From Paracoccaceae bacterium (lineage in GTDB: Bacteria > Pseudomonadota > Alphaproteobacteria > Rhodobacterales > Rhodobacteraceae), in assembly GCA_022843025.1 (NCBI GenBank), contig JALHOL010000003.1, positions 372,001 to 436,000 on the forward strand: a stretch of 64,000 nucleotides of DNA. The letters are read 5' to 3'. A program made the translations under genes and the position numbers. The notes under the pieces are model-generated. The model was not told where the DNA came from and ran no database searches. It saw only the letters and a program-made list of their open reading frames with translations. Positions within the stretch are counted from its first letter, which is position 1. Every line of letters starts with the position of its first letter. Of this stretch, positions 42,828 to 64,000 are shown piece after piece.

Positions 42828-44456
42828 ATGCAGACGATCCCCCTCGGCCCCACGGGCCATAGCGACACCTTCACCCGCGATAGCCTGCCCCCTGCCGACC
42901 AGTGGCCGGAATTGCAACTGGGCGCGTTCGACTATCCCGACTGGCTTAACGCCGCTGTGGAACTGACCGACCGGATGGTTGATCGCGGCTTTGGTGACCA
43001 TACCGCGCTGATCGGCAATGGCCGCGCGCGCACCTATAAAGAACTTACCGACTGGTCCAATCGCATCGCCCATGCGCTGGTCGAAGATTACGGCGTCAAA
43101 CCCGGCAACCGGGTGCTGATCCGGTCGGCCAATAACCCGGCGATGGTGGCCTGCTGGCTGGCCGCCACCAAGGCGGGGGCGGTGGTGGTGAACACCATGC
43201 CCATGCTGCGCGCGGGCGAGTTGACGGCCATCGTGAACAAGGCCGAAATCACCCACGCCCTGTGCGACACCCGCCTGATGGAAGAACTGGTCGCCTGCCA
43301 GAAGGACAGCGCTTTTCTTCACACGGTCGTGGGCTTTGACGGCACGGCCAACCATGATGCGGAACTCGACCGGATCGCCCTGCGAAAATCCGTCCGTTTC
43401 ACCCCGCACCCCACGGGGCGCGATGACGTGGCGCTTTTGGGCTTCACCTCGGGCACCACGGGCGCGCCCAAGGCCACGATGCATTTCCACCGCGACCTGC
43501 TGATCATCGCCGATGGCTATGCGCGCGAGGTTCTGACCGTGACCCCCGATGACGTTTTTGTCGGCTCTCCACCGCTGGCCTTCACCTTTGGCCTTGGTGG
43601 CCTTGCCATCTTCCCCCTGCGCTTTGGCGCGGCGGCGGCGCTGCTGGAACAGGCAAGCCCGCCCAATATGATCGACATCATCACCGAACATCGCGCGACG
43701 ATCTGCTTCACCGCACCGACCGCCTATCGCGTCATGCTCAAGGCGATAGAGGACGGCGCGGACCTCTCCTCGCTGCGCGCCGCCGTCAGCGCGGGCGAAA
43801 CCCTGCCCGCCCCGGTCTATGAAGAATGGATGGCACGCACGGGCAAGCCGATGCTCGACGGCATCGGTGCGACCGAGATGTTGCACATCTTCCTGACCAA
43901 CCGCTTCGATGACCACCGCCCCGGTTGCACCGGGCGCCCCGTCACGGGGTATGAGGCGCGGATCGTCGGCCCCGACATGGCCGAGTTGCCGCGCGGCGAA
44001 GTGGGTCGTCTGGCCGTGCGCGGCCCCACCGGCTGCCGCTATCTGGCCGATGATCGGCAGACCAACTATGTCCGCGATGGATGGAACCTGACGGGTGACA
44101 GTTTCTGGCAAGACGAAGACGGCCGCTTCCACTTTGCCGCCCGCTCTGACGACATGATCATCAGCGCAGGCTATAACATCGCCGGGCCAGAGGTAGAGGC
44201 GGCGCTGCTCTCCCACCCCGCCGTTCAGGAATGCGCCGTGATCGGTGCCGCCGATGCAGAACGCGGTCAGGTGGTCGAGGCCCATGTCGTGCTTGCCGCC
44301 GGTCATGCGGGCGACGCGCTGATGATCAAGCTGTTGCAGGATCACGTGAAAAAGGTGATCGCGCCCTACAAGTATCCCCGCCGGGTGCTGTTCACCGACG
44401 CCCTGCCGAAAACCCAGACCGGCAAGATCCAGCGCTTCCGCCTGCGCAGCAACTGA
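42828..44456 (+). CDS. abmG: AMP-forming aryl-CoA ligase (probable 2-aminobenzoate-CoA ligase)
   Basis: 542-residue ANL-superfamily acyl-CoA ligase. The P-loop is GFTSGTTGAPKATMHFH, the A5-type motif is LDGIGATEMLHIF, A8 is WNLTGDSFWQDEDGRFHFAARSDDMIISAGYNI, and the catalytic Lys motif LPKTQTGKIQRF is at the C-terminus. The sequence falls with the benzoate/2-aminobenzoate-CoA ligases. The specific substrate is inferred from the facing gene set, which encodes the other steps of 2-aminobenzoyl-CoA use. The start at 42828 gives MQTIPLGPTGHSD with GAGGCGC before it. It converges on the RidA-like gene with a 15-bp gap. Confidence 0.85.
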   Translation: MQTIPLGPTGHSDTFTRDSLPPADQWPELQLGAFDYPDWLNAAVELTDRMVDRGFGDHTALIGNGRARTYKELTDWSNRIAHALVEDYGVKPGNRVLIRSANNPAMVACWLAATKAGAVVVNTMPMLRAGELTAIVNKAEITHALCDTRLMEELVACQKDSAFLHTVVGFDGTANHDAELDRIALRKSVRFTPHPTGRDDVALLGFTSGTTGAPKATMHFHRDLLIIADGYAREVLTVTPDDVFVGSPPLAFTFGLGGLAIFPLRFGAAAALLEQASPPNMIDIITEHRATICFTAPTAYRVMLKAIEDGADLSSLRAAVSAGETLPAPVYEEWMARTGKPMLDGIGATEMLHIFLTNRFDDHRPGCTGRPVTGYEARIVGPDMAELPRGEVGRLAVRGPTGCRYLADDRQTNYVRDGWNLTGDSFWQDEDGRFHFAARSDDMIISAGYNIAGPEVEAALLSHPAVQECAVIGAADAERGQVVEAHVVLAAGHAGDALMIKLLQDHVKKVIAPYKYPRRVLFTDALPKTQTGKIQRFRLRSN

Positions 44457-44471
44457 CCCCGATCCCGGCTC

Positions 44472-44879
44472 TCAGGCCGGGATCACCGCCGTTGCCTCGA
44501 TCTCTACCTTGGCGCGGTCCTCGACCAGCGCCACCACCTGCACCAGCGCCATCGCCGGGTAATGCCGCCCGATCACCGCCTTGTAGACGCGGCCAAGCTC
44601 CTTGAGCGACCCAAGATATTCCCGCTTGTCGGTGACATACCATGTCAGCCGCACCAGATGCTCCGGTCCCGCCCCCGCACAGGCCAGCACCTCGACGATC
44701 GATTTCAGGGCCTGCTCCACCTGCCCCACGAAATCATCCGTCTCGAACTGCTGTTCGGCGTTCCAGCCGATGATGCCCCCTGTGAACACCATCCGCCCCG
44801 TGGCGGCCACCCCGTTGGAATAGCCGATGGCTGGTTTCCAATGCGACGGGTGCAGGAATTGCAGCGCGGTTTCGGTCAT
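44472..44879 (-). CDS. RidA family protein (candidate enamine/imine deaminase of the pathway)
   Basis: 135-residue RidA/YjgF/UK114 protein. The fold signatures VFTGGIIGWN and VRLTWYVTDKREY...VYKAVIGRHYPAMALVQVVAL...VEIEATAV are present, in order. The classical Arg that binds substrate carboxylates (PARS motif) is replaced: here the motif is PAM (Met110). That fits the Rid subfamilies without Arg and suits a CoA-thioester substrate without a free carboxylate. In the pathway it could hydrolyse the enamine of the reduced 2-amino-5-oxocyclohexene-carboxyl-CoA; this is inference. It is the last gene of the leftward operon and overlaps the thioesterase gene by 4 bases. Confidence 0.85.
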   Translation of the reverse strand: MTETALQFLHPSHWKPAIGYSNGVAATGRMVFTGGIIGWNAEQQFETDDFVGQVEQALKSIVEVLACAGAGPEHLVRLTWYVTDKREYLGSLKELGRVYKAVIGRHYPAMALVQVVALVEDRAKVEIEATAVIPA

Positions 44880-45286
44880 GCGGTCGTCTCCAGATGTGCG
44901 GTCAGCACCGCGCGAATAGGGTCAGGCCAGCGCGCAGGCCGCCCCTCGGGCGACATCCAGACCAGCACCAGCCGCGCCGTCAGCCGATGCGCGCCACCGC
45001 TGCCCATGTCCAGCTGGACGGTGACGGAACTGCCACCCACCTTTTCCACCACCAGCACCCAGTCCAGCACATCGCCAAGGCGCGACGGCGCGCGGAAATC
45101 CGTCTCCACCCGCGCGGTCGGCACGCCGATGCCATCCTTCATCATGGCGTGATAGGAATAGCCCACCACCTCGCGGAAGAAATTCTCGCAGACGGAATTG
45201 GTCATCTCGAAGTAACGGGGATAGAAGACGATCCCCGCCGGATCGCAATGGTTGAACTCCACCCGGATCGTGCGCCCATAGCTCAT
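44876..45286 (-). CDS. Acyl-CoA thioesterase (4-hydroxybenzoyl-CoA thioesterase type)
   Basis: 136-residue hotdog-fold thioesterase. The signature [20 protein letters not shown] contains Asp15, the catalytic Asp of the Pseudomonas-type 4-hydroxybenzoyl-CoA thioesterases. It would release CoA from aryl- or alicyclic thioesters, as a side-product relief valve or a pathway step. It overlaps the acyl-CoA dehydrogenase (ATGA) and the RidA-like gene (ATGA), so the three are coupled. Confidence 0.88.
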
Positions 45287-46419
45287 CCCAGCACACTCCG
45301 CGCGATCACAACCCGCTGCACATCGGATGCGCCCTCATAGATCCGCAGCGCTCGTATCTCGCGGTACAGGCTCTCCACCACAGACCCATGCCGCACACCG
45401 TCGCCCCCGTGCAACTGAACCGCCATGTCGATCACCTCCTGCGCGGCCTCGGTGGCATAAAGTTTCGCCATCGCCGCCTCGCGCGTGACCCGCGCCGCGC
45501 CACTGTCCTTCACCCAGGCCGCGCGATAGACCAACAGCGCCGCCGCGTCGATCTTCACGGCCATATCGGCCAGATGTCCCTGCACCATCTGCAATTCGGC
45601 CAGCGCCTGCCCCTGAATCCGCCGCGCCTTCACCCGCGCCAACGCCTCATCCAAAGCCCGCCGCGCAAAGCCCAGCGCCGCCGCCCCGACGGTCGACCGA
45701 AACACGTCCAGCACCGACATGGCGATCCGGAACCCCGCACCCGGTTCGCCGATCAACGCCCCCTCCGGCAGCACCATCCCCTTCATCCGCAAGGTCGCCA
45801 AAGGATGCGGTGCGATCACCTCCAATCGCTCCACCACCTCCAACCCCGGTGCATCGGCGGGCATCAGAAAGGCCGACAACCCCTTCGCCCCCGGTGCTTC
45901 GCCCGTTCGGGCAAAGAGCACATAGACATCCGCAATCCCGCCGTTGGAAATCCAGGTCTTCTCCCCCTCGATCAGCCATCCGCCCTGCACCCGCGTGGCA
46001 GTGGTCCTTGTCGCCGCCACATCCGATCCCGATCCCGGCTCCGTCAGGGCAAAACCCGAAATCGCCGCTCCCGCCCGCGTGCGCGCCAGCCACTCCTGCT
46101 GCGCAGCCGTGCCGAACAGGCTCACCGCCCCCATTCCCAGCCCCTGCATGGCAAAAGCGAAATCCGCCAACCCGTCATGCCGCGCCAGCGTCTCACGGAT
46201 CAGGCACAGCGTGCGCACATCCAGCCGCTCCCCCGCTGCAGCAGCGCTGTGCTGCAACCAGCCACCCGCCCCCAGCATGGCCACCAGCGACCGGCAGGCT
46301 GCATCCACATCGCCATGATCCACCGGCAGATGCGCCCCACACCACGCCTCCAGCGCGACGGACAGTTCGCGATGCCGATCTTCAAAGAAAGGCCAGTCCA
46401 GAAAACTCGTATCGCTCAT
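45283..46419 (-). CDS. Acyl-CoA dehydrogenase
   Basis: 378-residue FAD acyl-CoA dehydrogenase. FAD- and substrate-binding segments are [17 protein letters not shown], then [17 protein letters not shown]; the C-terminal helical domain includes [40 protein letters not shown]. It would oxidise an alicyclic CoA ester during ring degradation. It heads a sub-operon (dehydrogenase, thioesterase, RidA) separated from the enoyl-CoA hydratase upstream by two hairpins. The catalytic base cannot be named with certainty from the sequence alone. Confidence 0.9.
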
Positions 46420-46436
46420 GTCATCTTCTCTGTTTC

Positions 46437-46455: not shown

Positions 46456-46472
46456 GGCGCGGCACGCGCCGA

Positions 46473-46511: not shown

Positions 46512-46512
46512 G

Positions 46513-47325
46513 TCAATCCCCGCCAAACACCGGCGTTTCCTTCGCCACAAAGGCACGGTAGGCCCGCTCGAAATCCCGGGTCTGCATGCAGATGGCCTGT
46601 GCCTGTGCCTCGGCCTCGATGGCCTGCTCCAGCCCCATGTTCCATTCCTGATTGAGCTGTGTCTTGGTGATCCCATGCGCAAATGTCGGCCCTGCCGCCA
46701 GGGCCCGCGCCAGCGTCATCGCCCCCGCCTCCAGCTCTTCCGCCGGATGCAGCGCGTTCCAGAACCCCCACCGCTCGCCTTCCTCGGCGCGCAGTACGCG
46801 CCCGGTATAAAGCAGTTCCGCCGCCCGACCCTGCCCAATGATCCGCGGCAGCATCGCGCAGGCCCCCATGTCGCACCCCGCCAGCCCCACGCGGGTGAAC
46901 AGAAAGGCGCATTTCGCCCCGGGTGTTGCCAGCCGCAGGTCCGACGCCATCGCCATGATCGCGCCCGCCCCCACGCAAACGCCGTCTACCGCCGCGATGA
47001 TGGGTTTGCCGCAGCCGATCATCGCCTTCACGAGATCGCCGGTCATGCGGGTAAAGGCGAGAAGCTCTTTCATCTCCATCCCGACCAGCGGGCCGATGAT
47101 GTCATGTACATCGCCACCGGAACAGAAATTCCCCCCATTGGACGCAATCACCACCACATCCACATCCGTCGCATAGACCAGCGCGCGGAACGTATCGCGC
47201 AACTCGGCATAGCTCTCAAACGTCAGCGGGTTCTTTCGTTCGGGCCGGTTCAGCCGCACCACGGCCACCCGATCCACCACCTGCCACAGGAAATGTTCGG
47301 GCCGCAGCCCCGCCATCGCGCCCAT
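46513..47325 (-). CDS. Enoyl-CoA hydratase/isomerase family protein
   Basis: 270-residue crotonase-fold protein. The oxyanion-hole segments are [16 protein letters not shown] (about residues 63-78) and [24 protein letters not shown]; the region [19 protein letters not shown] replaces the Glu-rich signature of classical hydratases, so it may act as an isomerase, hydrolase or ring-opening enzyme instead. ATG 47325 shares a base with the MarR stop (TGATG). It belongs to the leftward 2-aminobenzoyl-CoA operon. Confidence 0.88.
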
Positions 47326-47759
47326 CACGCGCCCCCCATGCGTTTAAGAATATCGGTCAGCGCGTCCAGATCCGCCTCGGACAGGTTGGCAAAGCGGCGC
47401 GACACTTCGGTCTCATGCCCCGCGGCCAGCACTTCGAACTGCGCCAGCCCCTCGGGCGTCAGCGCCACATAAACCGTCCGCCGGTCCACCTCGGACGGCG
47501 TGCGCCGCACCAGCCCGTCCTTCTCCAACCGGTCCACCACCGTGGTCGCATTGCCGTTCGACACCAGCAGCATCCGGCTCAACTCGCTCATCGTCACGCC
47601 TTCACGGCGGCGATAAAGCGCGGCCATCACGTCAAAGCGCGGCAAGGTCGTCTGGTGCTGCAACCGCAGGAATTCGCGCAGATCGCTTTCCGCCATCCGC
47701 GTCACCCCCAGCAGGCGGATCCACATCTTAAGCCGCCGTTTTGACAGAGGATCGGTCAT
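47325..47759 (-). CDS. MarR family transcriptional regulator
   Basis: 144-residue MarR-type winged helix: [32 protein letters not shown] (recognition helix) followed by the wing [17 protein letters not shown]. MarR regulators in aromatic CoA operons usually sense the CoA-ester or acid and derepress. It is encoded inside the operon, overlapping the SDR stop (ATGA) and the hydratase start (TGATG). A palindrome in the divergent promoter at 50841-50858 is a good candidate operator. Confidence 0.92.
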
Positions 47760-48499
47760 ACCTCCCCCCCGGAAATCACGATCCCCTGCCCGTTAACCCC
47801 ATCGGCCCCATCTGATGCCAGCCACAGCGCCGCCGATGTCACCTCATCGGGGCGATACAGGCGGTTCTGCGGGCTCATCGCCTCCAATGCGGCACGTGCC
47901 TCGGTCAGCGACCGCCCGGTCTTTTCCGAGATGACCTTGATGGAGTGCTCCGTCATCTCGGTATCCAGAAACCCCGGGCAGATCGCGTTCACCGTCACCG
48001 GCCCGCGCGCCACCTCCAGCGCCAGCGACCGCACGATCCCCATCACCCCATGCTTGGCCGCCGCATAGGGGGCGACCTTGGCATAGCCCTTGACCCCCGC
48101 GGTCGAGGCTACGGCGATCAACCGCCCCCAGCCATCGAACTGCCGCAACCCTTCGCGAAAGGTCAGGAACACCCCCGTCAGGTTCACCGCCAGCATCGCA
48201 TTCCACTGCTCCAGCGTGGTGCGGGCAAAGGGCGCGCTATCGGCCTGCCCCGCATTGGCGATCACCACATCCACCCGCCCCGCCTGCGCAAACAGCGCCT
48301 GCACGGAGGACTCATCCGTCACATCGCAAGGCAGCGCCCGAATGGCGGGGTGTTGCGCGGCGACCGAAGCCAAGGCTTCCACCCGCCGCCCGCAGATCAC
48401 CACCTCGGCGGCACCGGCACGGGCGAAGCCCAGCGCAAGGTCTGCCCCCGCGCCCGATCCGCCGCCCGTGACCAGAACTCGCCGTCCCGTGATGCTCAT
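47756..48499 (-). CDS. SDR family oxidoreductase (hydroxyacyl-CoA dehydrogenase-like)
   Basis: 247-residue short-chain dehydrogenase. The cofactor motif is [15 protein letters not shown] (about residues 10-24), with NAG (IANAG), an active-site Ser in [11 protein letters not shown] and the YxxxK motif YAAAKHG. It would oxidise or reduce a ring-derived alcohol or ketone. The start at 48499 overlaps the stop of the monooxygenase/reductase gene (ATGA). A longer frame to 48619 lies inside that gene and is not supported. Confidence 0.9.
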
Positions 48500-50781
48500 G
48501 CCCGGATCACCTCTGTCCCCTTTTGCGCCAGCCGCCGCATCTGATCGCGCCCGGCCAGATAGGGCAACGGCCATTCGGTGGCAGCATCGCCCATGGCGAC
48601 GGCGGCGTGAAGGGTCCAATAGGGGTTGGCCAAATGCGGCCGCGCGAGGCAGACCAGATCCGCCCGCCCTGCCAGCAGGATGGAATTGACGTGATCCGGT
48701 TCGGTAATGTTGCCCACCGCCATGGTAGCAATCCCTGCCTCGTTGCGGATGCGGTCGCTGAAGGGTGTCTGGAACATGCGGCCATAAACCGGCTTGGCGT
48801 CTACGGACGTCTGCCCCGCCGACACGTCGATGATATCCGCCCCATTGGCCGCGAACAGGCGCGCAATCTCCACCGCTTCATCCGGCGTCACGCCTTCGTC
48901 GCCCACCCAATCGGTGGCCGAAATGCGCACCGACAAGGGCTTCTCCTCGCCCCATGCCGCCCGCATCGCGCGCAGCACCTCCAACGGCCAGCGCATCCGG
49001 TTCTCAAGCGATCCGCCATAGGCATCGGTCCGGATGTTCGATTTCGGGCTGATGAAGGACGACACCAGATAGCCATGCGCCGCGTGCAGTTCGATCATGT
49101 CAAACCCCGCCCGCTTGGCCATATCGGTCGCTGCGACAAACTCCGCCGTCACTGCTTCCATATCCGCCCGCGTCATTTCGCGCGGGGTGGCGTTCTTGGC
49201 CGACCAGGGCAGTGCGGATGGCCCGATGATCTCCCAGTTCCCCGTGGGCAAGGGCGCGTCGCCCTCCTCCCATCCGACCTGCGTCGATGCTTTCCGCCCG
49301 GCATGGCCGATCTGGCAGCAGATCTTGGCCTCCGTCTCGGTATGGACAAAATCCACCACCCGCCGCCACGCGGACTCATGCTCTTGCGCATAGAGCCCCG
49401 GGCAGCCCGGCGTGATCCGCCCCTGCGCGGAGGTGCAGGTCATTTCCGTATAGACCAGCCCCGCGCCCCCCTTGGCGCGTTCGCCGTAATGGACCAGATG
49501 CCAGTCGGTCGGGCAGCCCTCCACCGCCTTGTATTGCGCCATGGGTGACACGACGACACGGTTCTTCAGTGCCATATCGCGCAAGCGGAACGGCGCGAAC
49601 ATGGGCTTGCGCCCCTTCACCCCACCCGCCTGTTCCTGAAACCAGTCCTCGGTCCGGCCCAGCCATTCTGGGTCACGCAGGCGGAGGTTTTCATGCCCGA
49701 TCCGCTGGCTGCGGGTCAGCAGGGAATAGGCGAACTGCTCGGGCGGCAGGTCCAGATAGCGTTCCACCTGCTCGAACCACTCCAGCGAATTGCGCGCCGC
49801 CGATTGCAGGCGCAGCACCTCTACCCGCCGCTCATCCTGATAGCGCTGGAAGGCTGCCTCCATCGTCGGCTCACTATGCAGGTATTCCGCCAGCGCGATT
49901 GCGGAATCAAATGCCAGCCGCGTACCCGACCCGATGGAGAAATGCCCCGTCGCCGCCGCATCGCCCATCAGCACCACATTTTCATGGAACCACTTGCCAC
50001 AGACCACGCGGGGAAAGTTCATCCACACTGCCGACCCGCGCAGATGCGCCGCGTTGGAGATCAGCTCATGCCCGCCCAGATGCCGGTCGAATATCCGCCG
50101 GCACGTTTCGACCGTGTCCTCCTTGGACATATCGGCAAAGCCCCAGCGGTCCCACGTCTCCTGCGCCATTTCCACGATGAAGGTCGCGGTCTTGTCGTCG
50201 AACTGATAGGCATGCGCCCAGACCCAGCCATGCTCCGTCTTTTCGAAGATGAAGGTAAAGGCATCGTCGAATTTCTGCTGCGTGCCCAGCCAGACGAACT
50301 TGCACAGCCGCATGTCGATATCGGGCTGGAACACGGGTTCATATTCCCGGCGCACCGCCGAATTGATGCCGTCACAGGCGACGACGATATCGTATTCCTT
50401 GCGGTATTCCTCGGCCGATTTGAACTCTGTCTCGAACTGCAGATCGACGCCCAACTCGCGCGCCCGCGCCTGCAACAGGATCAGCATCTGCTTGCGTCCG
50501 ATCCCCGCAAAACCATGCCCGCCCGATACCGTGCGCACGCCGTCATGCACCACGGCGATATCATCCCAATAGGCGAAGTGATCGCGGATGGATTGGGTGG
50601 ACACCGGATCGTTCCGCCCCATCCGCCCCAGCGCATCATCCGACAGCACCACGCCCCAGCCAAAGGTATCATTGGCCCGGTTGCGCTCCAGCACGGTGAT
50701 CTGATGCGCCGGATCGCGCAGCTTCATCGAAATCGCAAAGTAAAGGCCGGCAGGGCCGCCGCCCAGACAAAGTATCTTCAT
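48496..50781 (-). CDS. abmA: 2-aminobenzoyl-CoA monooxygenase/reductase (fused FAD monooxygenase and OYE-type reductase)
   Basis: 761-residue natural fusion. The N-terminal half is a class A FAD monooxygenase: [11 protein letters not shown] at residues 7-17, VVLSDDALG, and [14 protein letters not shown] for FAD binding. The C-terminal half from about residue 385 is an Old-Yellow-Enzyme barrel ([50 protein letters not shown]). This architecture is that of the Azoarcus evansii enzyme that hydroxylates and reduces 2-aminobenzoyl-CoA. Salicylyl-CoA 5-hydroxylase is the usual automated label for the same architecture. The beta-oxidation-like neighbours and the absence of gentisate genes favour the 2-aminobenzoyl-CoA function. 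It is the first gene of the leftward operon. Confidence 0.9.
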
Positions 50782-50840
50782 GGCCCAAATCCCAGATGGC
50801 GCGGAATGCGCCTTGGGGAAAAGCTACACCGGATCAAAAC

Positions 50841-50875: not shown

Positions 50876-50900
50876 TGCCGCGCTTGCGAAGATCACCCCC

Positions 50901-55949: not shown

Positions 55950-57452
55950 ATGAAAATCGCCATCATCGGGGCCGGTTTTGCCGGACTGACCACCGCGCGC
56001 CACCTGCGCGACTTCGGCCATGACGTGACCGTGTTCGAAAAGGTGCATGACGTGGGCGGCGTCTGGTCCACCACGCGGCTTTATCCCGGCGTATCGACGC
56101 AAAATGGCAAGGACACCTATCACCTGTCCGATTTCCCGATGCCGAAACACTATCCCGAATGGCCGTCAGGCCAGCAGGTGCAGGCCTATCTGAACGCCTA
56201 TGCCGATCACTTTGGCCTGAACCCTCTGATCCGCCTGTCCACCCCCGTCACCCATGCGGCACAGGGCGCAGACGGGCGCTGGACCGTCACCTTCCGGCCC
56301 GACGGGCAGGCGGAACAAACGGAGAGCTTCGATTTCCTGACCATCTGCAACGGCATCTTCTCTGCCCCCGCCATCCCCGACTTCCCCGGTGCGGCAGAGT
56401 TCAAATCCGCAGGCGGCACGATCTGCCATTCTTCGGAATTCCTCGATCTGGAACAGGCGAGGGGCAAGCATGTGGTGGTGATCGGCTATGGCAAATCCTC
56501 TTGCGATGTGGCGGTGGGGCTGGTCGATGCCGCTGCCTCCATGACCGTGGTCGCGCGGGAACTGATCTGGAAAATGCCCAAGAAACTGGGCGGCGTGCTG
56601 AATTACAAATACATCTTCCTCACCCGGATGGGCGAGGCGCTGTTTCCCTATATCCGCCTGCAGGGGGTTGAGAAATTCCTACACGGCGCAGGCCGCCCGG
56701 TGCGCAACTCCATGCTGGGATCGGTGCAGGCGGTGATCACCAAACAGCTGAAACTCAAACAGCGCGGCGCACTGCCGCGAGGGTCATTCGAACGCATCGC
56801 GCGGTCCACCGTCAGCCTTGTCACCGACGGCTTCTTTGATCTGGTGGAGAAAGGCCGCATCACCATCAAGCGTGACACGGCCATCGACCAGTTGGTTGTC
56901 GAAGGCGGCCGCCGCTTTGCCCTGCTGAAATCGGGCGAAAAGATCCCCGCCGATATCGTGATCTGCGGCACCGGATGGCGGCAAGAGGTGCCCTTCCTCG
57001 ACCCTGCGCTTCAGGCGCGCATCATGGACGGGCGCGGCAATTTCCGCCTCTATCGCTGCATCCTGCCCACGGGCGTGCGCAACCTTGCCTTCAACGGCTA
57101 TAATTCCTCCTTCTTCTCGCCCCTGTCGGCGGAAATGGGCGCGCTCTGGATCGCGGCCCATCTGGGCGGCGCGCTGGACCTGCCGTCCGAGCGTGCGCAG
57201 CTTGAGGCGACCGATGCCCGCCTGCGCTGGATGGAGGAACGGACCGAAGGCAAACATGCGCGCGGCACCAATATCATCCCCTTTTCCATGCATCAGGTGG
57301 ATGAGTTGCTTGCAGACATGGGCCTGTCCATCGGCCCGATGCAGCGCTTCATGGAATGGCAGATGCCGGTCAAGCCGGGGGCCTATGCCCGCGTCGCGCG
57401 CGACCTGCACCGCCGGCTGGACAGCGTCGAACGAAAACCCGTGCTGGCCTGA
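55950..57452 (+). CDS. Flavin-containing monooxygenase (FMO/BVMO-like)
   Basis: 500-residue NAD(P)-binding flavoprotein. The FAD motif is IIGAGFAGLTTARHLRDFGH (residues 5-24), a W-rich active-site region GGVWSTTRLYPGVSTQNGKDTYHLSDFP follows, and a second Rossmann motif VVIGYGKSSCDVAVGL binds NADPH. It is related to class B monooxygenases. It could oxygenate an indole- or ketone-type intermediate. Its partners here are an SDR upstream and, facing it, a winged-helix regulator plus a two-component flavin oxygenase. The substrate is not known. Confidence 0.86.
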   Translation: MKIAIIGAGFAGLTTARHLRDFGHDVTVFEKVHDVGGVWSTTRLYPGVSTQNGKDTYHLSDFPMPKHYPEWPSGQQVQAYLNAYADHFGLNPLIRLSTPVTHAAQGADGRWTVTFRPDGQAEQTESFDFLTICNGIFSAPAIPDFPGAAEFKSAGGTICHSSEFLDLEQARGKHVVVIGYGKSSCDVAVGLVDAAASMTVVARELIWKMPKKLGGVLNYKYIFLTRMGEALFPYIRLQGVEKFLHGAGRPVRNSMLGSVQAVITKQLKLKQRGALPRGSFERIARSTVSLVTDGFFDLVEKGRITIKRDTAIDQLVVEGGRRFALLKSGEKIPADIVICGTGWRQEVPFLDPALQARIMDGRGNFRLYRCILPTGVRNLAFNGYNSSFFSPLSAEMGALWIAAHLGGALDLPSERAQLEATDARLRWMEERTEGKHARGTNIIPFSMHQVDELLADMGLSIGPMQRFMEWQMPVKPGAYARVARDLHRRLDSVERKPVLA

Positions 57453-57458: not shown

Positions 57459-58013
57459 TCACGGCCTGCGATGCGTGGCGGCAACGCGCGAGATTTCCTC
57501 GTAAATCCCGGATAGCAGGTTCAGTGTGCGCGTGGCCTCGGCCAGGCGTTCGCTGAATCCCGGCACATTGGCCACCGCCTGCAACAACAGCCGCCGCCGC
57601 AATGCGCCGTAATCCTCGGTCACACGCAGGCCTTCTTCGGTCACCTCATAGGTCACACCCGACCGCCCCGCCCCCTTGCGCAGCACCAGCCCGGCCCCGA
57701 TCAGCTTGCGCAGCGAATACTGGATGTTGGGCACATCATCCCGATTCGTCAGCCGCGCCAGATCCTTGATCGTCTTGGGGCGGTCGTTCATCCGGATGAT
57801 GTGCAAAAGCGCGTTCTCCGGCCCCGTCGCCGCCAGATCGCAGACCGACGCCAGACATTCCGATTGCCAGCGCCCGAATCCCTCAAACGTGCGCATCAGG
57901 GCAAACTCCAGCTCGGTCGTGTCCACCTCGACCGCGCTTTGCGCCAGATGCCAGTGCCAATCCAGCCCCCGCACCCGTGCATCATTTTGAACTGGAATGA
58001 TTTTGTCTGCCAT
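57459..58013 (-). CDS. Winged-helix (MarR-like) transcriptional regulator
   Basis: 184-residue winged-helix protein. The DNA-binding core is ALLHIIRMNDRPKTIKDLARLTNRDDVPNIQYSLRKLIGAGLVLRKGAGRSGVTYEVTEEG (about residues 78-137); a short C-terminal helix follows. The start at 58013 gives MADKIIPVQND with a G-rich ribosome site. It is divergent from the LLM oxygenase gene and very probably controls it through the 116-bp shared region. It is related to regulators commonly found beside LLM oxygenases. Confidence 0.85.
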   Translation of the reverse strand: MADKIIPVQNDARVRGLDWHWHLAQSAVEVDTTELEFALMRTFEGFGRWQSECLASVCDLAATGPENALLHIIRMNDRPKTIKDLARLTNRDDVPNIQYSLRKLIGAGLVLRKGAGRSGVTYEVTEEGLRVTEDYGALRRRLLLQAVANVPGFSERLAEATRTLNLLSGIYEEISRVAATHRRP

Positions 58014-58056
58014 GAACCCCGCCCTTTTCCAGCGTGACTCTGGCCGCACGCGCCCG

Positions 58057-58129: not shown

Positions 58130-59221
58130 ATGACCCAACACCCGATGCTCTCGGGCGATCGTTTTCGCCTTGGCACTTTTTCCACCAACTGCTCCTCGGG
58201 CATGACGCCCACCAAAGCGCCCGAACGCTGGAACAACAGTTGGGACAACAACCTGAAACTGGCAAAGATGCTGGATGAGGCGGGGATTGATTTCATGCTG
58301 CCGATTGCCCGCTGGATCGGTTACGGCGGCGAGACGGATTTCCACGGCGGCGTGCTGGAAACCATGACCTGGGCCGCGGGCCTGCTGGCCGCCACAAAGA
58401 ACATCGCCGTCTTCGCCACCATCCACACTGCCGCCAACCACCCCGTCGTGGTGGCCAAGCAGATGGCCACGATCGACCAGATCGGCCACGGCCGCGCCGG
58501 GCTGAACATCGTCGCGGGCTGGAACAAGCCGGAATATGAGGCGCTGGGTCTGACCCTGCCCGATGACCATGAAACCCGTTACGGCTATGCGCAGGAATGG
58601 TTCGACCTGATCCGCAAGCTGTGGACATCAGACGATCATTTCGACTGGGACGGCAAGTACTTCAAAGCCGCCAAGGTGAAGGGCGACCCGAAACCAATGC
58701 GCGGCACGGTCCCCATCATCAACGCGGCAGGCAGCCCGCAAGGCCGCGAATTTGCCACCGACAATGCCAACTTCCTGTTCACCCCCGCCATCGACCTTGA
58801 ACGCTCAAAGGCGGAAATCGCGGAACTGAAGGCGCAGGCCAAGGCCAAGGGGCGCGATGTGAACGTGCTGACCTTCAGCCATGTCATCTGCCGCCCGACC
58901 GAGGATGAAGCAAAGGCCTATGCCGATTACACCGCCGTGCAGAATGCCGATACCGATGCCGTCGACAATCTGGTGCGCCTGCAATTCGCCCATGCCCACA
59001 GCTTTCCCCATGATCTGCTGGCCCAGATCAAGCATCTTTTTGCGCTGGGGCATGGCGGTTTCCCCTTGATTGGCACGCCGGAACAGGTGGCCGACGGAAT
59101 CGTGAAGCTGCATGCGACAGGATTTGCAGGAACCACGCTTTCCTTTGTCGATTATGTCGAAGAGTTCCCCTATTTCCGTGACCATGTGCTGCCCCGGCTG
59201 GAGGCGGCAGGGATCAGATAG
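58130..59221 (+). CDS. LLM class flavin-dependent monooxygenase (RutA/SfnG-like)
   Basis: 363-residue luciferase-like monooxygenase. LGTFSTNCSSGMTPTKAPERW at the N-terminus, WIGYGGETDFHGG and VFATIHTAANHPVVVAKQMATIDQIGHGRAGLNIVAGWN are typical of the RutA-like group of FMNH2-using oxygenases. The flavin is supplied by a reductase, encoded 11 bp downstream. The family cleaves or hydroxylates heterocycles and sulfones. An indole-derived substrate is possible from context only. It is divergent from the winged-helix regulator. Confidence 0.88.
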   Translation: MTQHPMLSGDRFRLGTFSTNCSSGMTPTKAPERWNNSWDNNLKLAKMLDEAGIDFMLPIARWIGYGGETDFHGGVLETMTWAAGLLAATKNIAVFATIHTAANHPVVVAKQMATIDQIGHGRAGLNIVAGWNKPEYEALGLTLPDDHETRYGYAQEWFDLIRKLWTSDDHFDWDGKYFKAAKVKGDPKPMRGTVPIINAAGSPQGREFATDNANFLFTPAIDLERSKAEIAELKAQAKAKGRDVNVLTFSHVICRPTEDEAKAYADYTAVQNADTDAVDNLVRLQFAHAHSFPHDLLAQIKHLFALGHGGFPLIGTPEQVADGIVKLHATGFAGTTLSFVDYVEEFPYFRDHVLPRLEAAGIR

Positions 59222-59232: not shown

Positions 59233-59724
59233 ATGGCCGAACCGGACGCCAAAGCGTTTCGCGATGCGATGCGCGCCTTTGTGGGCAATTGCAGCGTGAT
59301 CACCGTGGGCGAGGGCGAAGAGGCGACGGGGTTGGTCGTCACCTCGGCCATCTCGCTTTCGGCCGAACCACCCTTGCTGCTGGCCTGCGTGAACCGCTCG
59401 GCCTCCAGCCACCCCTTGTTCGCGCGCTACGGCCATTTCGGCTGGAACTCGCTGGGCGCGGCGCATCAGCCGGTGGCGGAACGCTTCTCCGGCTTTGCCG
59501 GGGTGCGCGGGGCCGCGCGCTATGAAGGGGCGGAATGGGAAACCGCCGTCACCGGGGCGCAACTCCTGAAGGGCGCACCGGCCGCCTTTGACTGCACGCT
59601 GGAGGAAATGATCGACCGCGCTACCCATTCCATCCTGATCGGCCGCGTCCGCGCGATCCGCACCACCCCGAACGCCGGGGCGTTGATGTATTGGAACGGC
59701 GCTTATCGCGCGCTAGAGGCTTAA
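59233..59724 (+). CDS. Flavin reductase (two-component monooxygenase partner)
   Basis: 163-residue flavin reductase-like FMN-binding protein. FRDAMRAFVGNCSVITVG, GLVVTSAISLSAEPPLLLACVNRSASSHPLF and GAAHQPVAERFSGF form the flavin-binding split barrel, and a C-terminal IGRVRAIR segment follows. It supplies reduced flavin to the LLM oxygenase just upstream. It ends before a perfect 10-bp GC-rich hairpin (59731-59754). Confidence 0.9.
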   Translation: MAEPDAKAFRDAMRAFVGNCSVITVGEGEEATGLVVTSAISLSAEPPLLLACVNRSASSHPLFARYGHFGWNSLGAAHQPVAERFSGFAGVRGAARYEGAEWETAVTGAQLLKGAPAAFDCTLEEMIDRATHSILIGRVRAIRTTPNAGALMYWNGAYRALEA

Positions 59725-59827: not shown

Positions 59828-59848
59828 CGGCTAGAAAAGATCTAGGTG

Positions 59849-61411
59849 TCAGGCGAAACTGCGGATCGTAGCCACAGCCCCGTCCAACGCCTTGCCCTCT
59901 TCATCCTTCAGCGCAGCCTCCCGCAACCGGCGGCACCAGTCGGCGGCATCCGGGCGCGCGGCGATCTGCGCGGTGGCGGCAAGGACGCGGTCAAACTTGG
60001 ATTGCCCGCGCGCATGCGTATCGGAATAGCCCTTGATCAGGCGGCGACAGCGGATCAGTTCCACCGCCAGATCATAATTGCGCGCCGTCTCGGCCAAGGC
60101 CGTTTGCAACCAGCGCGCCATATGCGCCTGTTCCTGCGCGTGGCGCAGCGTGCGGCGACGCCATCCGCGCAAGCCCCCCACGATATGCAAAGTCAGAAAG
60201 GCGCGCAGGCTGTCGGTCCGCAGGCGGCGGCCCTTGTTGAACCACAGATCCAGCCGCGCCATCCATTTCGGATCGGCCTCCACCTTCGCACCCAGACGCG
60301 CCGGGAACAGCCCGACGATTTCCTCAGCCCGGGGGTGAAAGAATTCGGTCAGGTGCAGAAGGTTTGCCTCCTTCACCCCCATCTCCTTGCGGATACGGTC
60401 AAAGCGGCGGCCGCGGGTTTTCAGATCGGCCACGCGGATGATGTCGTCATAGGCCATGGCGTTGGCGATGTACTTCGCCGCCTCGCGCGACAGCACCCAG
60501 CCCTGCGCCGCGCTGTCCTGCGCCAGAACTGTGGCAAGCCGGTCCAGGTACTCGCCCCCATAGGCGATGTCCTGAAAATCCACCACCTTGCGCAGGCCCG
60601 GCAGGGCCATCTCGGCCACCGGCGCGGGCAGGGCCGCGACGCGGGCGGCAAGTGTGTCCCAGGCTGCCGTCAGCCGGGCGGGGCCTGTCACCTGTGCCGC
60701 TACCGCCTTGGGCTTTGGCGCGGCCACCTCGGCCACCGGGTTTGCCGCCACGGCCAGCGCCGCGCCAAAAGCGCGCAGCGACCCCTCCACTCCCTTGCCG
60801 CTGGCACGGATCGCAGCCTCGAACGCTGCGCGGTCAAAGGGCAGCGCCCCCGACCCCGCCAGCGCCCCGAAGAGCGAGGCGGAAATCACCGACCCGTTCG
60901 CAATCGCCAGCGCGTCGAAATCCGCCGCGATGAAGCGCTGCGCCGCGATCTCTGCCGCTGCCATCACCTCATCCGATGCCGCGATACCATCCCCCGGCAC
61001 CATCTTTTCCGACACCGCCAGCGCGCGGTGGGTGCTGGCGATCAGCGTGGTCCGGTCCGGCGTCACGAACCCCCGGATGATCGATCGCCCGGCCTCCATC
61101 ATTTCCGCCGCGATCATGATGTCCACATCGCCCGCCGCCGGCATCAGCGAAAAGACCGGCATCGGATCACCCGCCCGATGCGGGGCCATCTCGATGTAAT
61201 AGACCGTGGCCCCGGTCCGTTGCGCCACCCCTGCCACCGATGTGGCCTGCGCGGCATAGCCGTTGGATCGCGCCAGATCCTCGATCCAGCTGGTCAGAAC
61301 CCCGCCGCCCTGCCCACCCACGGCCAGGATCGCCAGCTTGATGATCCCCGACAGGCGCGGATCGGCGGATTTGGCGGGCAAGGCGCCCGACACCATGTCA
61401 TGCACCGTCAT
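59849..61411 (-). CDS. iorB: Indolepyruvate oxidoreductase beta subunit (with C-terminal DUF6537-type domain)
   Basis: 520-residue IorB-like subunit. The N-terminal gamma-type POR domain (AILAVGGQGGGVLTSWIEDLA, then DVDIMIAAEMMEAGRSI) is followed by a long C-terminal extension from about residue 250 that ends in a helical, Arg-rich region (GLRGWRRRTLRHAQEQAHMARWLQTAL). Classical IorB proteins lack this tail, so the protein is a fusion form. The ATG at 61411 overlaps the iorA stop (ATGA), so iorA and iorB are coupled. It would transfer electrons from 2-oxo-acid decarboxylation together with IorA. Confidence 0.88.
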   Translation of the reverse strand: MTVHDMVSGALPAKSADPRLSGIIKLAILAVGGQGGGVLTSWIEDLARSNGYAAQATSVAGVAQRTGATVYYIEMAPHRAGDPMPVFSLMPAAGDVDIMIAAEMMEAGRSIIRGFVTPDRTTLIASTHRALAVSEKMVPGDGIAASDEVMAAAEIAAQRFIAADFDALAIANGSVISASLFGALAGSGALPFDRAAFEAAIRASGKGVEGSLRAFGAALAVAANPVAEVAAPKPKAVAAQVTGPARLTAAWDTLAARVAALPAPVAEMALPGLRKVVDFQDIAYGGEYLDRLATVLAQDSAAQGWVLSREAAKYIANAMAYDDIIRVADLKTRGRRFDRIRKEMGVKEANLLHLTEFFHPRAEEIVGLFPARLGAKVEADPKWMARLDLWFNKGRRLRTDSLRAFLTLHIVGGLRGWRRRTLRHAQEQAHMARWLQTALAETARNYDLAVELIRCRRLIKGYSDTHARGQSKFDRVLAATAQIAARPDAADWCRRLREAALKDEEGKALDGAVATIRSFA

Positions 61412-63555
61412 GCCGCCCCCCCGAAATCCAGCCGCCGCGCGGCGCGGCAGGCCTGCAACCAGCCGATCACGCGCGTGCGGAAAGCCGCCAGCCGCGTTTC
61501 CCATTTCGACGGGTTATGGATCACATCCGCGCGGTAGAAAGACGGGCAAAGGACAGCGGCATCCGCCACCTCACCACAGTTCCCGCAGCCCACACAGCTT
61601 TGGTCGATGCTGGCCACCGGATCGTCGCGCAGCGGATCGTCCAGCTTCTTGACGGACAATGACGGACAGCCCGACAGGCGGATACAGGCATGATCGCCGG
61701 TGCATACATCCTCATCCACGCCAAAACGCGGCGCCTCCACCCGGCGTCCTTCCTTGATCGCCTTGGCCGCAAGCGGTTTTTCCCGCCGCTGCTTGTTCAG
61801 CATGCATTCGCTGGAGGCGACAATAACCTTCGGCCCCGGCGCATCCGTCGTCAGCGCCTCGCGCAGCACGTCGCGCATATGGCCCACATCATAGGTGCGG
61901 TCCACCTGACGGACCCAGTCGATCCCGATGCCCTTCAGCGCCTTGGTGATCGGGTGCTTGGTGGCCTTGGTCGGGTTGTCGGCGCGCGACGACATGATGT
62001 CCTGCCCGCCGGTGGCGGCGGAATAGTAGTTGTCCACGATCACCGCCACGCCGTCGGATTTGTTGAAGGCCATGTTGGTGAAACTGGACGACAGCCCGTT
62101 ATGCCAGAAGCCCCCATCCCCGATGATCGCCACAGGCCGCCGCTCCCCCCCGCCATCAAAAGCGGCATTCGCGGCGGGGCCAAGGCCATAGCCCATGGTC
62201 GCGCCGCCAATCTCGAACGGCGGCAGCGCAGCAAACAGATGGCAGCCGATATCGGCGCTGATCTGCAACTTGCCGGTTTCCTTCTGCACCAGCTTCATCG
62301 CGGCAAAGATCGGCCGTTCCGGGCAGCCGGTGCAGAATCCCGGCGGGCGGATCGGCACGGTTTTCGTCAGATCGGGGATCTGCGGCTTGTCCTCATTCGG
62401 GGCGCGCACCAGCGCGGGCAGCATCTGGGGCGCGGCCTCCTTGAGAAAGGCCGTGATCCCGTCAAGCAGCACTTGGCCCGTATATTCCCCCGCCATCGGC
62501 AGGATGCCCTTGCCGCGCAGCTTTACCGACGATCCCGCGCGATAAAGATAGGTCGTCAACTGTTGTTCGATGAATTCCGGCTGGCCTTCCTCGATCACCA
62601 GCACCTGATCCTTGCCCTCGCAGAACTCCAGAAATTCGCCTGCCAGCAGGGGATAGGTCACGTTCAGCACATAAAGCGGCACCTCGGTATTGCCGTGCAG
62701 GTCCGCCAGACCCAACCGCTGCAAGGCGCGGATGACGCCGTTATACATGCCGCCTTGCAACACCAGCCCCACCGGGGCGATGCTGGGGCCGAACACCTCA
62801 TTCAACGCGCGCTCGCGGATGAACCGTTCTGCATTGGGCCAGCGATTCTTGATCTTGTCCTGCTCATGGGCAAAGGACATGGGCGGCAGCACGACACGGG
62901 CGAAATCGGATTGCGGGTTCGACAGCGCATCCTTCACGCTGAGCGTCGGGCGCTGGTTGTCGCGCGTCTGGAAAGACCCGGTCACATGGCAGGACCGTAT
63001 CCGCACCATCAGCATGACGGGCGTATTCGATGCCTCGGACAGTTCAAACCCGTCCTTCACCGCCTTGGTGATGCAGGGCAGGTTCGGGCGCGGGTCCAGC
63101 AGCCAGAATTGCGATTTCATCGCAAAGGCATGGCTGCGTTCCTGCATGATCGAGGAACCCTCGCCGTAATCCTCGCCCACAATGACCAGCGCGCCGCCGT
63201 TCACCCCCGATGATGACAGGTTCGCCAGCGCGTCAGAGGCCACGTTGACCCCCACCGATCCCTTGAAAGTCACCGCCCCCCGGATCGGGTAATGCACAGA
63301 TGCCGCCAGCATCGCCGCCGCCGCCGCCTCATTGGCATTGGCCTCGAACCGGATGCCCAACTCGCCCAGCAGCTCTTCGGCATCTGCCAAGACGTCCATC
63401 AGATGCGAAATCGGCGCGCCCTGATAGCCGCCGACATAGCCCACCCCGTTTTCCAGCAGCGCCTTGGTGATGGCCAGGATCCCTTCGCCGGTGAAGGTTT
63501 CCCCCTCGCCCAGCCGCAGATGTTCCACTTCCGCCTTGAAGGACCGTTCAGCCAT
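61408..63555 (-). CDS. iorA: Indolepyruvate:ferredoxin oxidoreductase alpha subunit
   Basis: 715-residue IorA-type enzyme. An N-terminal pyruvate-ferredoxin-like domain (GYVGGYQGAPISHLMDVLADAEEL) is followed by the TPP-binding domain from about residue 440 with the GDG-N motif GDGGFWHNGLSSSFTNMAFN and by two Fe-S cluster Cys sets near the C-terminus (VCTGDHACIRLSGCP; SCVGCGNCGEVADAAVLCP). It decarboxylates arylpyruvates (indolepyruvate, phenylpyruvate) to aryl-acetyl-CoA with ferredoxin as electron acceptor. The first Cys set has longer spacings than a standard ferredoxin motif. It follows a MarR gene by one base and is coupled to iorB. Confidence 0.92.
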   Translation of the reverse strand: MAERSFKAEVEHLRLGEGETFTGEGILAITKALLENGVGYVGGYQGAPISHLMDVLADAEELLGELGIRFEANANEAAAAAMLAASVHYPIRGAVTFKGSVGVNVASDALANLSSSGVNGGALVIVGEDYGEGSSIMQERSHAFAMKSQFWLLDPRPNLPCITKAVKDGFELSEASNTPVMLMVRIRSCHVTGSFQTRDNQRPTLSVKDALSNPQSDFARVVLPPMSFAHEQDKIKNRWPNAERFIRERALNEVFGPSIAPVGLVLQGGMYNGVIRALQRLGLADLHGNTEVPLYVLNVTYPLLAGEFLEFCEGKDQVLVIEEGQPEFIEQQLTTYLYRAGSSVKLRGKGILPMAGEYTGQVLLDGITAFLKEAAPQMLPALVRAPNEDKPQIPDLTKTVPIRPPGFCTGCPERPIFAAMKLVQKETGKLQISADIGCHLFAALPPFEIGGATMGYGLGPAANAAFDGGGERRPVAIIGDGGFWHNGLSSSFTNMAFNKSDGVAVIVDNYYSAATGGQDIMSSRADNPTKATKHPITKALKGIGIDWVRQVDRTYDVGHMRDVLREALTTDAPGPKVIVASSECMLNKQRREKPLAAKAIKEGRRVEAPRFGVDEDVCTGDHACIRLSGCPSLSVKKLDDPLRDDPVASIDQSCVGCGNCGEVADAAVLCPSFYRADVIHNPSKWETRLAAFRTRVIGWLQACRAARRLDFGGAA

Positions 63556-63556
63556 G

Positions 63557-64000
63557 TCAGATCTCGTGCTTGCGGATATTGGTCAGCATCTTCTGCAACG
63601 TGCCCACAAAGGCCCGCCGCTCATCATCGGGAATGCCGCGGAACATGCGGGCATGTGCCTCGGCCATCCGGGGCCAAAGCGCCTCGAACGCCATGCGCCC
63701 ACCTTCGGTGATGAAGATACGCGTCGCGCGGCTGTCGCTGGCATCCGCCTCGCGCCGGATCAGGCCCTCTGCCGCCAACTGGTCCAGCGCGCGGGACAGG
63801 GTGGATTGCTCCACCACCGAATAGACCGCCAGTTCCCGGATCAGCGGCCCCTCGATCACCGACAGCACCGCCAAGGCCCGCATTTTGGGCGTGGTCAGAC
63901 CCTGCCCCGCCATCTCATCGCGCAAGCTGGCATTGTACCGCCCCATGATGCGGTTCATCAGATAAGGCGCGTAATTCGTCAGCCCGATCTCCCCCAGCCG
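63557..64000 (-). CDS. MarR family regulator, 5' end beyond window
   Basis: At least 147 codons are visible. The winged-helix core is TTPKMRALAVLSVIEGPLIRELAVYSVVEQSTLSRALDQLAAEGLIRREADASDSRATRIFITEGG, with a C-terminal helix. An ATG at 63958 is probably internal, because the frame continues to the window edge with MarR-like sequence (EIGLTNYAPYLMNRIMGRYN). It stops one base before iorA and probably controls the ior operon in response to an arylpyruvate- or CoA-type ligand. Confidence 0.88.
   Translation of the reverse strand, partial: RLGEIGLTNYAPYLMNRIMGRYNASLRDEMAGQGLTTPKMRALAVLSVIEGPLIRELAVYSVVEQSTLSRALDQLAAEGLIRREADASDSRATRIFITEGGRMAFEALWPRMAEAHARMFRGIPDDERRAFVGTLQKMLTNIRKHEI

Follow-up and report, generated by a model that had tools for sequence, protein, structure and literature searches.

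The 64,000-nucleotide stretch of DNA considered here (the window; positions 372001 to 436000 of contig C3 in the 3.9-Mb genome of a Paracoccaceae bacterium) carries an island of catabolic genes around iorAB, a gene pair that takes its family name from indolepyruvate:ferredoxin oxidoreductase (IOR). On genomic grounds, we are highly confident that this locus serves isatin catabolism. We also favor, with decidedly less assurance, a complete scheme in which indole would be degraded via isatin and IorAB would act on isatinate, the product of isatin hydrolysis; as judged from sequence and gene neighborhood, IorAB is likely to be an isatinate enzyme. The island extends past the right end of the window on the same contig, a continuation (FMOx, isatin hydrolase, FMOy, and an ABC transporter with a family-5 solute-binding protein, SBP5) that the original prediction for this DNA overlooked. 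In window numbering, the core of the island is as follows.

59849 to 61411, minus strand: iorB-like subunit with POR and DUF6537 domains (NF006179, 689.6 bits, cut-off 348; PF01558, PF20169); start set at 61411 on the basis of an ATGA overlap with iorA
61408 to 63555, minus strand: iorA-like subunit, a thiamine pyrophosphate enzyme (TIGR03336, 283.1 bits against a cut-off of 650.9; PF02775; ferredoxin-like cysteines recognized by eye)
63557 to 63958, minus strand: MarR2, a MarR regulator directly upstream of iorA (PDB matches 3cjn and 7kym)
64042 to 65607, minus strand, outside the window: FMOx, a crtI-like FAD oxidoreductase
65611 to 66408, minus strand, about 1.6 to 1.8 kb past the window end: isatin hydrolase (cyclase family)
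66560 to 68110, plus strand, outside the window: FMOy, a second crtI-like FAD oxidoreductase
beyond FMOy, outside the window: SBP5, followed by ABC transporter genes

The host genome has three cyclase-family (PF04199) genes, one of which is the gene just past the window. Its product matches isatin hydrolase B of Labrenzia aggregata (PDB 4j0n) over essentially the full length (phmmer E 2.5e-145, 486 bits, residues 4 to 264 of 265), and we saw no feature that distinguishes the two; structures 5nmp, 5nna, and 5nnb are matched at E values of about 1e-80, and kynurenine formamidases at 4e-5 at most. The metal-binding motif HxxxHxD (H75, H79, and D81) is invariant in all 11 aligned homologues, with a spacing equal to that of the isatin hydrolase ligands His69, His73, and Asp75 (PMC6117287). 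By family, the cyclase is an isatin hydrolase, an activity known for a homologue. Together with FMOx, marR2, iorA, and iorB, it forms one run on one strand, and Labrenzia sp. DG1229 (L147) has the same core gene order. The best PDB match of MarR2 is 3cjn (E 7e-47), for which no function is named; the second, 7kym (E 9e-18), is one of the structures of the auxin-locus MarR paper, which is of slight help to an indolic reading, and the match to the Variovorax MarR_73 bound to indole-3-acetic acid (IAA) (7kfo) reaches only 8e-7.

Isatin hydrolase and iorA keep company well beyond this genome. An alignment-based scan of named genomes gave 592 confirmed relatives of the hydrolase, of which we took the best 80, which are thus close and related loci. 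Among these best 80, iorA (at least 55% identity) is present in 68, at 0.5 to 2.8 kb from the hydrolase gene in 66 and at 6.3 and 7.6 kb in two; other partners are marR2 (67 loci), FMOx (52), FMOy (47), SBP5 (44), and ACMR, a candidate 2-aminobenzoyl-CoA monooxygenase/reductase (13). A better test is provided by a family sample of 149 genomes from 148 genera, host included, for which the tests ignore kinship. Isatin hydrolase was called there at E ≤ 1e-100 and iorA at a minimum of 64% identity, a line drawn after inspection of the hits, by which 5 of 34 genomes at E ≤ 1e-150 were set apart; these 5 stand at 53 to 55%, none of them has isatin hydrolase, and one has ACMR. The hydrolase occurs in 26 of the 149 genomes, and all 26 have iorA versus 3 of the 123 without it (Fisher p = 5e-26); in 22 the two genes lie within 10 kb on one contig, the exceptions being G027, G068, G102, and G148. 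ACMR is present in 23 of the 26 versus 31 of the 123 (p = 2e-9), and in 26 of 29 genomes with iorA versus 28 of 120 without. In a sample of 240 genomes of the class, iorA (E ≤ 1e-100) was found in 35 and isatin hydrolase (E ≤ 1e-60) in 7; four of these hydrolases, at 57% identity or more, adjoin iorA, and three, at 43 to 48%, are on other contigs.

IorB belongs to the IorB family (PRK08312, POR plus DUF6537), and the host has a single POR-domain gene and a single iorA; IorA itself gave no match to PDB sequences at 0.001. The product of isatin hydrolase, isatinate, is 2-aminophenylglyoxylate, an alpha-keto acid and hence of the substrate class of the POR/IOR superfamily. Because the usual partner of iorA thus yields an alpha-keto acid, we suggest isatinate as the substrate of IorAB. 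Moreover, iorAB occurs with front ends of both the indole type and the IAA type, and isatinate is favored here because isatin, not indolepyruvate, is common to the two. Examples of the IAA type include genomes G031 and G027, where iorAB-marR2 stands with Rieske, PDR, and ligase genes; locus L150, where such genes accompany two hydrolases, iorAB, and 2-aminobenzoyl-CoA (abm) genes; Paracoccus saliphilus, with a Rieske front end adjoining iorAB; and Azospirillum thermophilum plasmid NZ_CP029358 (L210, 6917 to 21485), with MarR, iorA, iorB, PDR, Rieske, ligase, short-chain dehydrogenase/reductase (SDR), ACMR, SDR, enoyl-CoA hydratase, and acyl-CoA dehydrogenase genes in one run.

The literature on auxin degradation bears on the same point. 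Conway et al. (PMC9613470) describe iorAB as markers exclusive to iad loci, in which IAA is degraded via isatin and isatinic acid. When iadC-K2 was overexpressed in a strain with the whole locus deleted, C8H7NO3 and C7H7NO accumulated strongly, and only there (PMC12633357). This construct leaves out iadA (iadA is gene 72 and iadC gene 70; PMC9613470) and, judging by the gene numbering, iadB as well. In our own reading, the two formulae are those of isatinic acid and 2-aminobenzaldehyde, as would be expected without IorAB; sections 5 and 11 of PMC12633357 do not state this, and iadA, iadB, and indolepyruvate were looked for in its main text without a match. In the open-access literature, which leaves most subscription journals uncovered, we found no assignment of isatinate to IorAB.

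Thinning of 118 iorA rows left 55, and the tree built from these is divided by a fully supported branch (100/100). On one side are every row linked to isatin hydrolase (26), the two with a Rieske link, one whose link is to a carbon-nitrogen hydrolase, and 7 other rows, which include G148 (hydrolase elsewhere on the same contig), G253, G223, G325, and G235; on the other are 18 other rows and a mandelate-linked row, several of them labelled from 1.5-kb flanks only. Hydrolase linkage changes 8 times on the tree versus 18.6 times in shuffles and is not a single-origin trait. On plasmids of Sagittula, Ruegeria, and Shinella (L038, L039, and L211), the companions of iorAB are a cupin gene, a fumarylacetoacetase-like gene, and a gene for a carbon-nitrogen hydrolase. 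Variovorax boronicumulans plasmid NZ_CP138497 (L209, 9809 to 20385) has iorAB with mandelate genes and a branched-chain-type ABC transporter; both (S)-mandelate dehydrogenase (6bfg, E 5e-89) and mandelate racemase (3uxk, E 7e-138) have homologues among the neighbors, which would supply phenylglyoxylate, and it is possible that IorAB acts on this compound there, in a route from mandelate to benzoyl-CoA.

The route that we propose for the present island would begin with the oxidation of indole at C2/C3 by FMO, a flavin monooxygenase, after which SDR2, a relative of IifB, would yield 3-hydroxyindolin-2-one, as in the Iif pathway. FMOx and/or FMOy would then oxidize this compound to isatin, and isatin hydrolase, placed by its family and by the known activity of a homologue, would open the lactam to give isatinate. 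IorAB would oxidatively decarboxylate isatinate onto CoA, giving 2-aminobenzoyl-CoA, CO2, and reduced ferredoxin; ACMR, and then beta-oxidation-type enzymes down to a thiolase, all recognizable as families, would complete the breakdown. The CoA ligase would provide a second entry, for anthranilate from other sources. More broadly, the clade of IorAB may constitute a distinct, CoA-acylating isatinate (2-aminophenylglyoxylate):ferredoxin oxidoreductase, the shared exit of indole and IAA degradation via isatin in many alphaproteobacteria and at least one actinobacterium, forming 2-aminobenzoyl-CoA without ATP or free anthranilate, with a RutA-like luciferase-like monooxygenase (LLM) pair adding oxidative opening of a related lactam; for this conjunction taken whole, we would put the balance just on the favorable side of even.

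The genes of the presumptive front end lie between the abm and LLM genes:

53957 to 54940, minus strand: AraC regulator gene, interrupted by an in-frame TAG at 54569 to 54571 (both pieces match AndR, NF041686, below cut-off)
55129 to 55896, plus strand: SDR2, an IifB-like dehydrogenase (59% identity to a Burkholderia pyrrocinia indole-cluster SDR, 75% to an Alloyangia SDR)
55950 to 57452, plus strand: FMO, candidate indole oxygenase (PF00743), in the slot of a two-component indole monooxygenase

The Alloyangia SDR adjoins a styrene/indole monooxygenase on a plasmid, and that of B. pyrrocinia, our comparator in place of the named IifB, belongs to a cluster with iif gene content, in the order AraC, dienelactone-hydrolase-like gene, SDR, indole monooxygenase, flavin reductase, and transporter. 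In iif/ind clusters, IifB gives 3-hydroxyindolin-2-one and IifA takes this compound to anthranilate (PMC6221969 and PMC12538310); by position only, the dienelactone-hydrolase-like gene of B. pyrrocinia would be IifA. The AraC-SDR pair here corresponds to that of indole-degradation clusters. In genome G121, an indole monooxygenase (SMO) and flavin reductase (FR) occupy the slot held by FMO here; SMO occurs in 7 and FMO in 3 of the best 80 hydrolase loci, never both. The front end thus varies around a constant core. Tsukamurella has the order AraC-SDR-FMO-FAD oxidoreductase-iorBA-cyclase, and G034 holds most of the chain inside 20 kb. The two-component oxygenase (SMO) found no match in the host genome at E ≤ 1e-80. 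The TAG in the AraC gene (AndR/IifR-like), also overlooked in the original prediction, is on the minus strand and splits a frame that is open in the relative G121; it could be real regulatory decay or an assembly error.

The IifA-like gene of B. pyrrocinia has no match in the window or in the 24 kb past it (L044 and L045); genome-wide in the host, its best match is 35% identical over residues 4 to 230 of 415, and in 13 whole genomes the best is 44%, none reaching past residue 234 of 415. Six IifA-like records (L181, L183, L189, L190, L192, and L196) show no isatin hydrolase in the 8 to 25 kb read, and 11 SMO clusters with isatin hydrolase (Azospirillum, Alloyangia, G121, G149, G034, L117, L118, L121, L122, L126, and L141; the hydrolase side of G149 was covered by whole-genome search only) show no IifA-like gene. 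Twelve of 21 plasmid records with indole monooxygenase were examined: 6 have an IifA-like gene, 2 have isatin hydrolase, and 4 have neither, and these 4 (Nonomuraea, Streptomyces, and two Deinococcus) are also without an IifB-like SDR. The class genomes G286 and G316 carry SMO and an IifB-like SDR, but both IifA and isatin hydrolase are missing from the 20 kb (G275 was left out). A second plasmid cluster in Azospirillum runs AraC-SDR-SMO-FR-FAD oxidoreductase-cyclase, the FAD oxidoreductase (60% identity to FMOx) and the cyclase (49% to isatin hydrolase) following the indole oxygenase and transporter genes. Since this indole cluster has an FMOx relative and a cyclase, and no IifA-like gene in the stretch, FMOx is a candidate for the isatin-forming enzyme.

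All three blocks named in the original prediction (iorAB; flavin monooxygenase, FMO, and SDR; and CoA-dependent 2-aminobenzoate genes ending in a thiolase) do stand side by side in the window, with family matches at the positions given. The 2-aminobenzoyl-CoA block consists of the following genes.

42828 to 44456, plus strand: 2-aminobenzoate-CoA ligase-like (AbmG-like), benzoate-CoA ligase family (TIGR02262, 360 bits, just below the cut-off of 375)
44472 to 44879, minus strand: RidA family enamine/imine deaminase (PF01042)
44876 to 45286, minus strand: hotdog thioesterase (PF13279)
45283 to 46419, minus strand: acyl-CoA dehydrogenase (PF00441, PF02770)
46513 to 47328, minus strand: ECH1, enoyl-CoA hydratase (NF006107, 478 bits, cut-off 330)
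47325 to 47759, minus strand: MarR1, MarR regulator of the abm block (PF01047)
47756 to 48502, minus strand: SDR1, SDR dehydrogenase (PF00106)
48496 to 50781, minus strand: ACMR, candidate 2-aminobenzoyl-CoA monooxygenase/reductase (NF006101, 1275.7 bits, cut-off 1078; VioD-like and OYE halves)
50796 to 51656, plus strand: ECH2, enoyl-CoA hydratase (PF00378)
51653 to 52765, plus strand: HBDH, 3-hydroxyacyl-CoA dehydrogenase (PF02737, PF00725)
52762 to 53937, plus strand: thiolase, PcaF-like (TIGR02430, 545 bits, below the cut-off of 597)

Stop and start codons overlap as ATGA at iorA/iorB, ACMR/SDR1, SDR1/marR1, ECH2/HBDH, and HBDH/thiolase, and as GTGA at marR1/ECH1. ACMR is a fused FAD monooxygenase/OYE-type reductase with both halves present; its family is named "bifunctional salicylyl-CoA 5-hydroxylase/oxidoreductase", and it is from context only a candidate to act on 2-aminobenzoyl-CoA rather than salicylyl-CoA. 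The CoA ligase is 71% identical to that of the Alloyangia indole/isatin plasmid cluster. In G104, of the same genus, some 310 kb separate the ligase gene from the other genes of the operon.

Between the front end and iorB lies a block around the LLM gene:

57459 to 58049, minus strand: winged-helix regulator, companion of the LLM gene (PF13463)
58130 to 59221, plus strand: LLM, RutA/SfnG-type FMN monooxygenase (TIGR04021 and TIGR03612, both below cut-off)
59233 to 59724, plus strand: flavin reductase partner of LLM (PF01613; best NCBIfam match RutF, below cut-off)

Among structures, LLM matches SfnG (E 3e-42) and RutA (E 2e-36), and it stays below both NCBIfam cut-offs (RutA, 164.5 of 498.3 bits; SfnG, 187.7 of 382.95). 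Because RutA-type enzymes cleave an amide, by way of a flavin-N5-peroxide, a lactam is the natural guess for its substrate; counted by eye, T97 and N126 align with T87 and N116 of RutA, which we take to be oxygen-pocket positions. A role for LLM in opening isatin, as a substitute for isatin hydrolase, was dropped once the hydrolase-family gene had been found just past the window. The RutA-like pair probably acts on some by-product or on a related lactam. LLM (at least 73% identity, a set that excludes G040 and a second copy in G138, both at 44%) occurs in 8 of the 149 family genomes, all 8 of which have isatin hydrolase, versus 18 of the 141 without LLM (p = 3e-7), and it lies within 10 kb in 10 of the best 80 hydrolase loci. 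In this sample LLM is thus confined to genomes with isatin hydrolase, although in 5 of the 8 (G028, G044, G124, G062, and G138) it is on a contig other than the hydrolase's. A winged-helix gene adjoins LLM in G104, G121, G028, G044, G124, G062, and two rhizobial plasmids, the latter without iorAB or hydrolase in the 25 to 32 kb read, and in the class sample LLM (E ≤ 1e-130) was found in the host genome only (1 of 240). The separate contigs, the rhizobial plasmids, and this scarcity would suit an unrelated passenger block, whereas the confinement to hydrolase genomes and the 10 close loci speak for a connection; we regard the passenger explanation as the less probable one, while giving it appreciable weight.

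Several observations weigh against the indole-via-isatin scheme. Twelve of the best 80 hydrolase loci have no iorA in reach, and 10 of these include 10 kb of 3' sequence (the other two end within 1.6 kb). The family genomes G031, G092, and G139 carry iorA without isatin hydrolase, as do, within about 20 kb, the class genomes G253, G223, G325, and G235 (L089 to L092), which have isatin-clade iorA and are not among the 7 of 240 with a hydrolase at E ≤ 1e-60. The mandelate-linked iorA falls in the other clade of the tree. iorAB and the abm-type genes co-occur, as the ACMR counts given above show, but ACMR is within 12 kb of iorA in only 6 of the 26 family genomes with both. A loss of the ligase, expected with direct CoA formation, finds no support, as the ligase is retained in 34 of 36 genomes (at least 76% identity); it is thus not rendered dispensable by a direct formation of the CoA ester. 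In 69 of the best 80 loci, none of the three front ends is in reach, and in the present island the gene of the AraC regulator is interrupted. In Novosphingobium sp. EMRT-2, the neighbors of a related FMO-SDR-AraC set on a plasmid (L035, 5333 to 18187) are not iorAB but catechol genes and a set of amidase, acyl-CoA dehydrogenase, and Rieske genes that resembles an iac locus for IAA. The early steps of the IAA route as published are revised in PMC12633357, a 2025 preprint. In the same study, the accumulation in the iadC-K2 strain may come from overexpression alone, and anthranilic acid was restored by iadC-K2 without iadAB, which implies another route from isatinate to anthranilate in Variovorax.

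Some of these points lend weight to other explanations. The natural substrate of the same core might be a compound other than indole (IAA, oxindole, a substituted indole, or imported isatin), on which FMO and SDR would act; the iad-type Rieske front ends that adjoin the same iorAB in other genomes, the many loci with none of the three front ends, and the SBP5 gene in 44 of the best 80 would fit this. However, SDR2 and the AraC gene belong to indole (iif-type) clusters, the adjoining slot in relatives holds an indole monooxygenase, and no Rieske gene was seen among the scanned window genes (no genome-wide search was made), so we consider such a substrate rather unlikely. Somewhat more doubtful still is that isatinate is decarboxylated or oxidized to free anthranilate, activated only by the CoA ligase, with IorAB serving elsewhere, for example, on arylpyruvates from amino acids. 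The restored anthranilate in Variovorax and the retained ligase are in keeping with this, as is a report on the indole degrader Cupriavidus sp. SHE, in which a 2-aminobenzoyl-CoA cluster is called vital for the degradation of anthranilate (PMC6221969), but it leaves unexplained the presence of iorAB in every one of the 26 family genomes with isatin hydrolase and in both indole and IAA loci, as well as the strong accumulation of C8H7NO3 reported for strains without iadAB. The original prediction itself had tryptophan transaminated, IorAB making indoleacetyl-CoA from indolepyruvate, and flavin enzymes degrading this to 2-aminobenzoyl-CoA. For this, there is the family name of iorAB and the arylpyruvate activity described for the Pyrococcus IOR (cited in PMC5109826). 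Yet IorA misses the NCBIfam equivalog cut-off for IOR alpha by a wide margin (TIGR03336, 283.1 versus 650.9 bits), iorA usually has isatin hydrolase for a partner (68 of the best 80 hydrolase loci), not an aminotransferase, and IAA loci, in which indolepyruvate is not an intermediate, carry iorAB as an exclusive marker too (PMC9613470). No tryptophan aminotransferase was seen among the island genes scanned (a genome-wide search for one was not made). We reject the indolepyruvate scheme because of the missed cut-off and the hydrolase partnership, and hold it to be very improbable. What survives of that proposal is that the island concerns indolic compounds and that its blocks belong together; its starting point, tryptophan and indolepyruvate, gives way to the isatin route.

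In several respects, the island resembles known systems. With the iif/ind cluster (Acinetobacter sp. O153 and Cupriavidus sp. SHE; dhoAB-ipoABC in WHOP), it shares an IifB-type SDR adjoining a flavin-dependent oxygenase, and its interrupted AraC gene stands in the place of the AraC regulator there (PMC6221969 and PMC12538310). However, FMO replaces the two-component oxygenase IifC/IifD, no close IifA-like gene was found, and the proposed way onward from 3-hydroxyindolin-2-one, via isatin, runs through FAD oxidoreductases, isatin hydrolase, and IorAB. With the iad IAA locus of Variovorax paradoxus CL14 and Bradyrhizobium, it shares, at the level of gene family, iadAB (iorAB), a cyclase-family gene (iadI), and a MarR regulator; in our own reading, iadI, annotated as a kynurenine formamidase, is an isatin hydrolase, and dioxindole, isatin, and isatinic acid are reported as intermediates of iad IAA degradation (PMC9613470 and PMC12633357). 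Unlike that locus, the island has an indole-type front end and a full abm operon, and no Rieske oxygenase iadCDE, ligase iadF, or thiolase iadG was seen among the scanned genes (for Rieske genes, no genome-wide search). The aerobic 2-aminobenzoyl-CoA pathway of the Azoarcus/Cupriavidus type likewise has the CoA ligase, the monooxygenase/reductase, and beta-oxidation-type genes, but the feed proposed here would come also from isatinate through IorAB and not only from anthranilate through the ligase. The CoA-benzoylating phenylglyoxylate oxidoreductase of Azoarcus evansii, PadEFGHI, provides a parallel for the proposed chemistry (arylglyoxylate and CoA to aroyl-CoA, CO2, and electrons; PMC5109826); IorAB differs in having DUF6537 and a proposed substrate with an ortho-amino group, a distinction drawn by subunit make-up, not sequence.

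Two questions raised by a 2018 review of indole degradation are whether isatin lies on the pathway as a genuine intermediate and by which genes anthranilate is processed onward (PMC6221969). The IAA-locus papers, in the parts covered, use iorAB as a marker and give no reaction for it. The island and its relatives supply candidate genes for the formation of isatin, its opening, and its capture by CoA, and they tie the indole and IAA routes together. If the proposal is true, many genes annotated as indolepyruvate oxidoreductase would be misnamed, and the pathway would gain reduced ferredoxin, the yield of an IorAB-type oxidation, at a point where the ligase route spends ATP.

To the left of the island, a tRNA-Glu gene (42612 to 42686) directly precedes the CoA ligase gene. 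Among 10 proteins scanned in that flank, 6 have assigned families, including a primase, a tRNA synthetase, and a glutamine synthetase, and RecJ and homoserine dehydrogenase, named by eye, are also encoded there.

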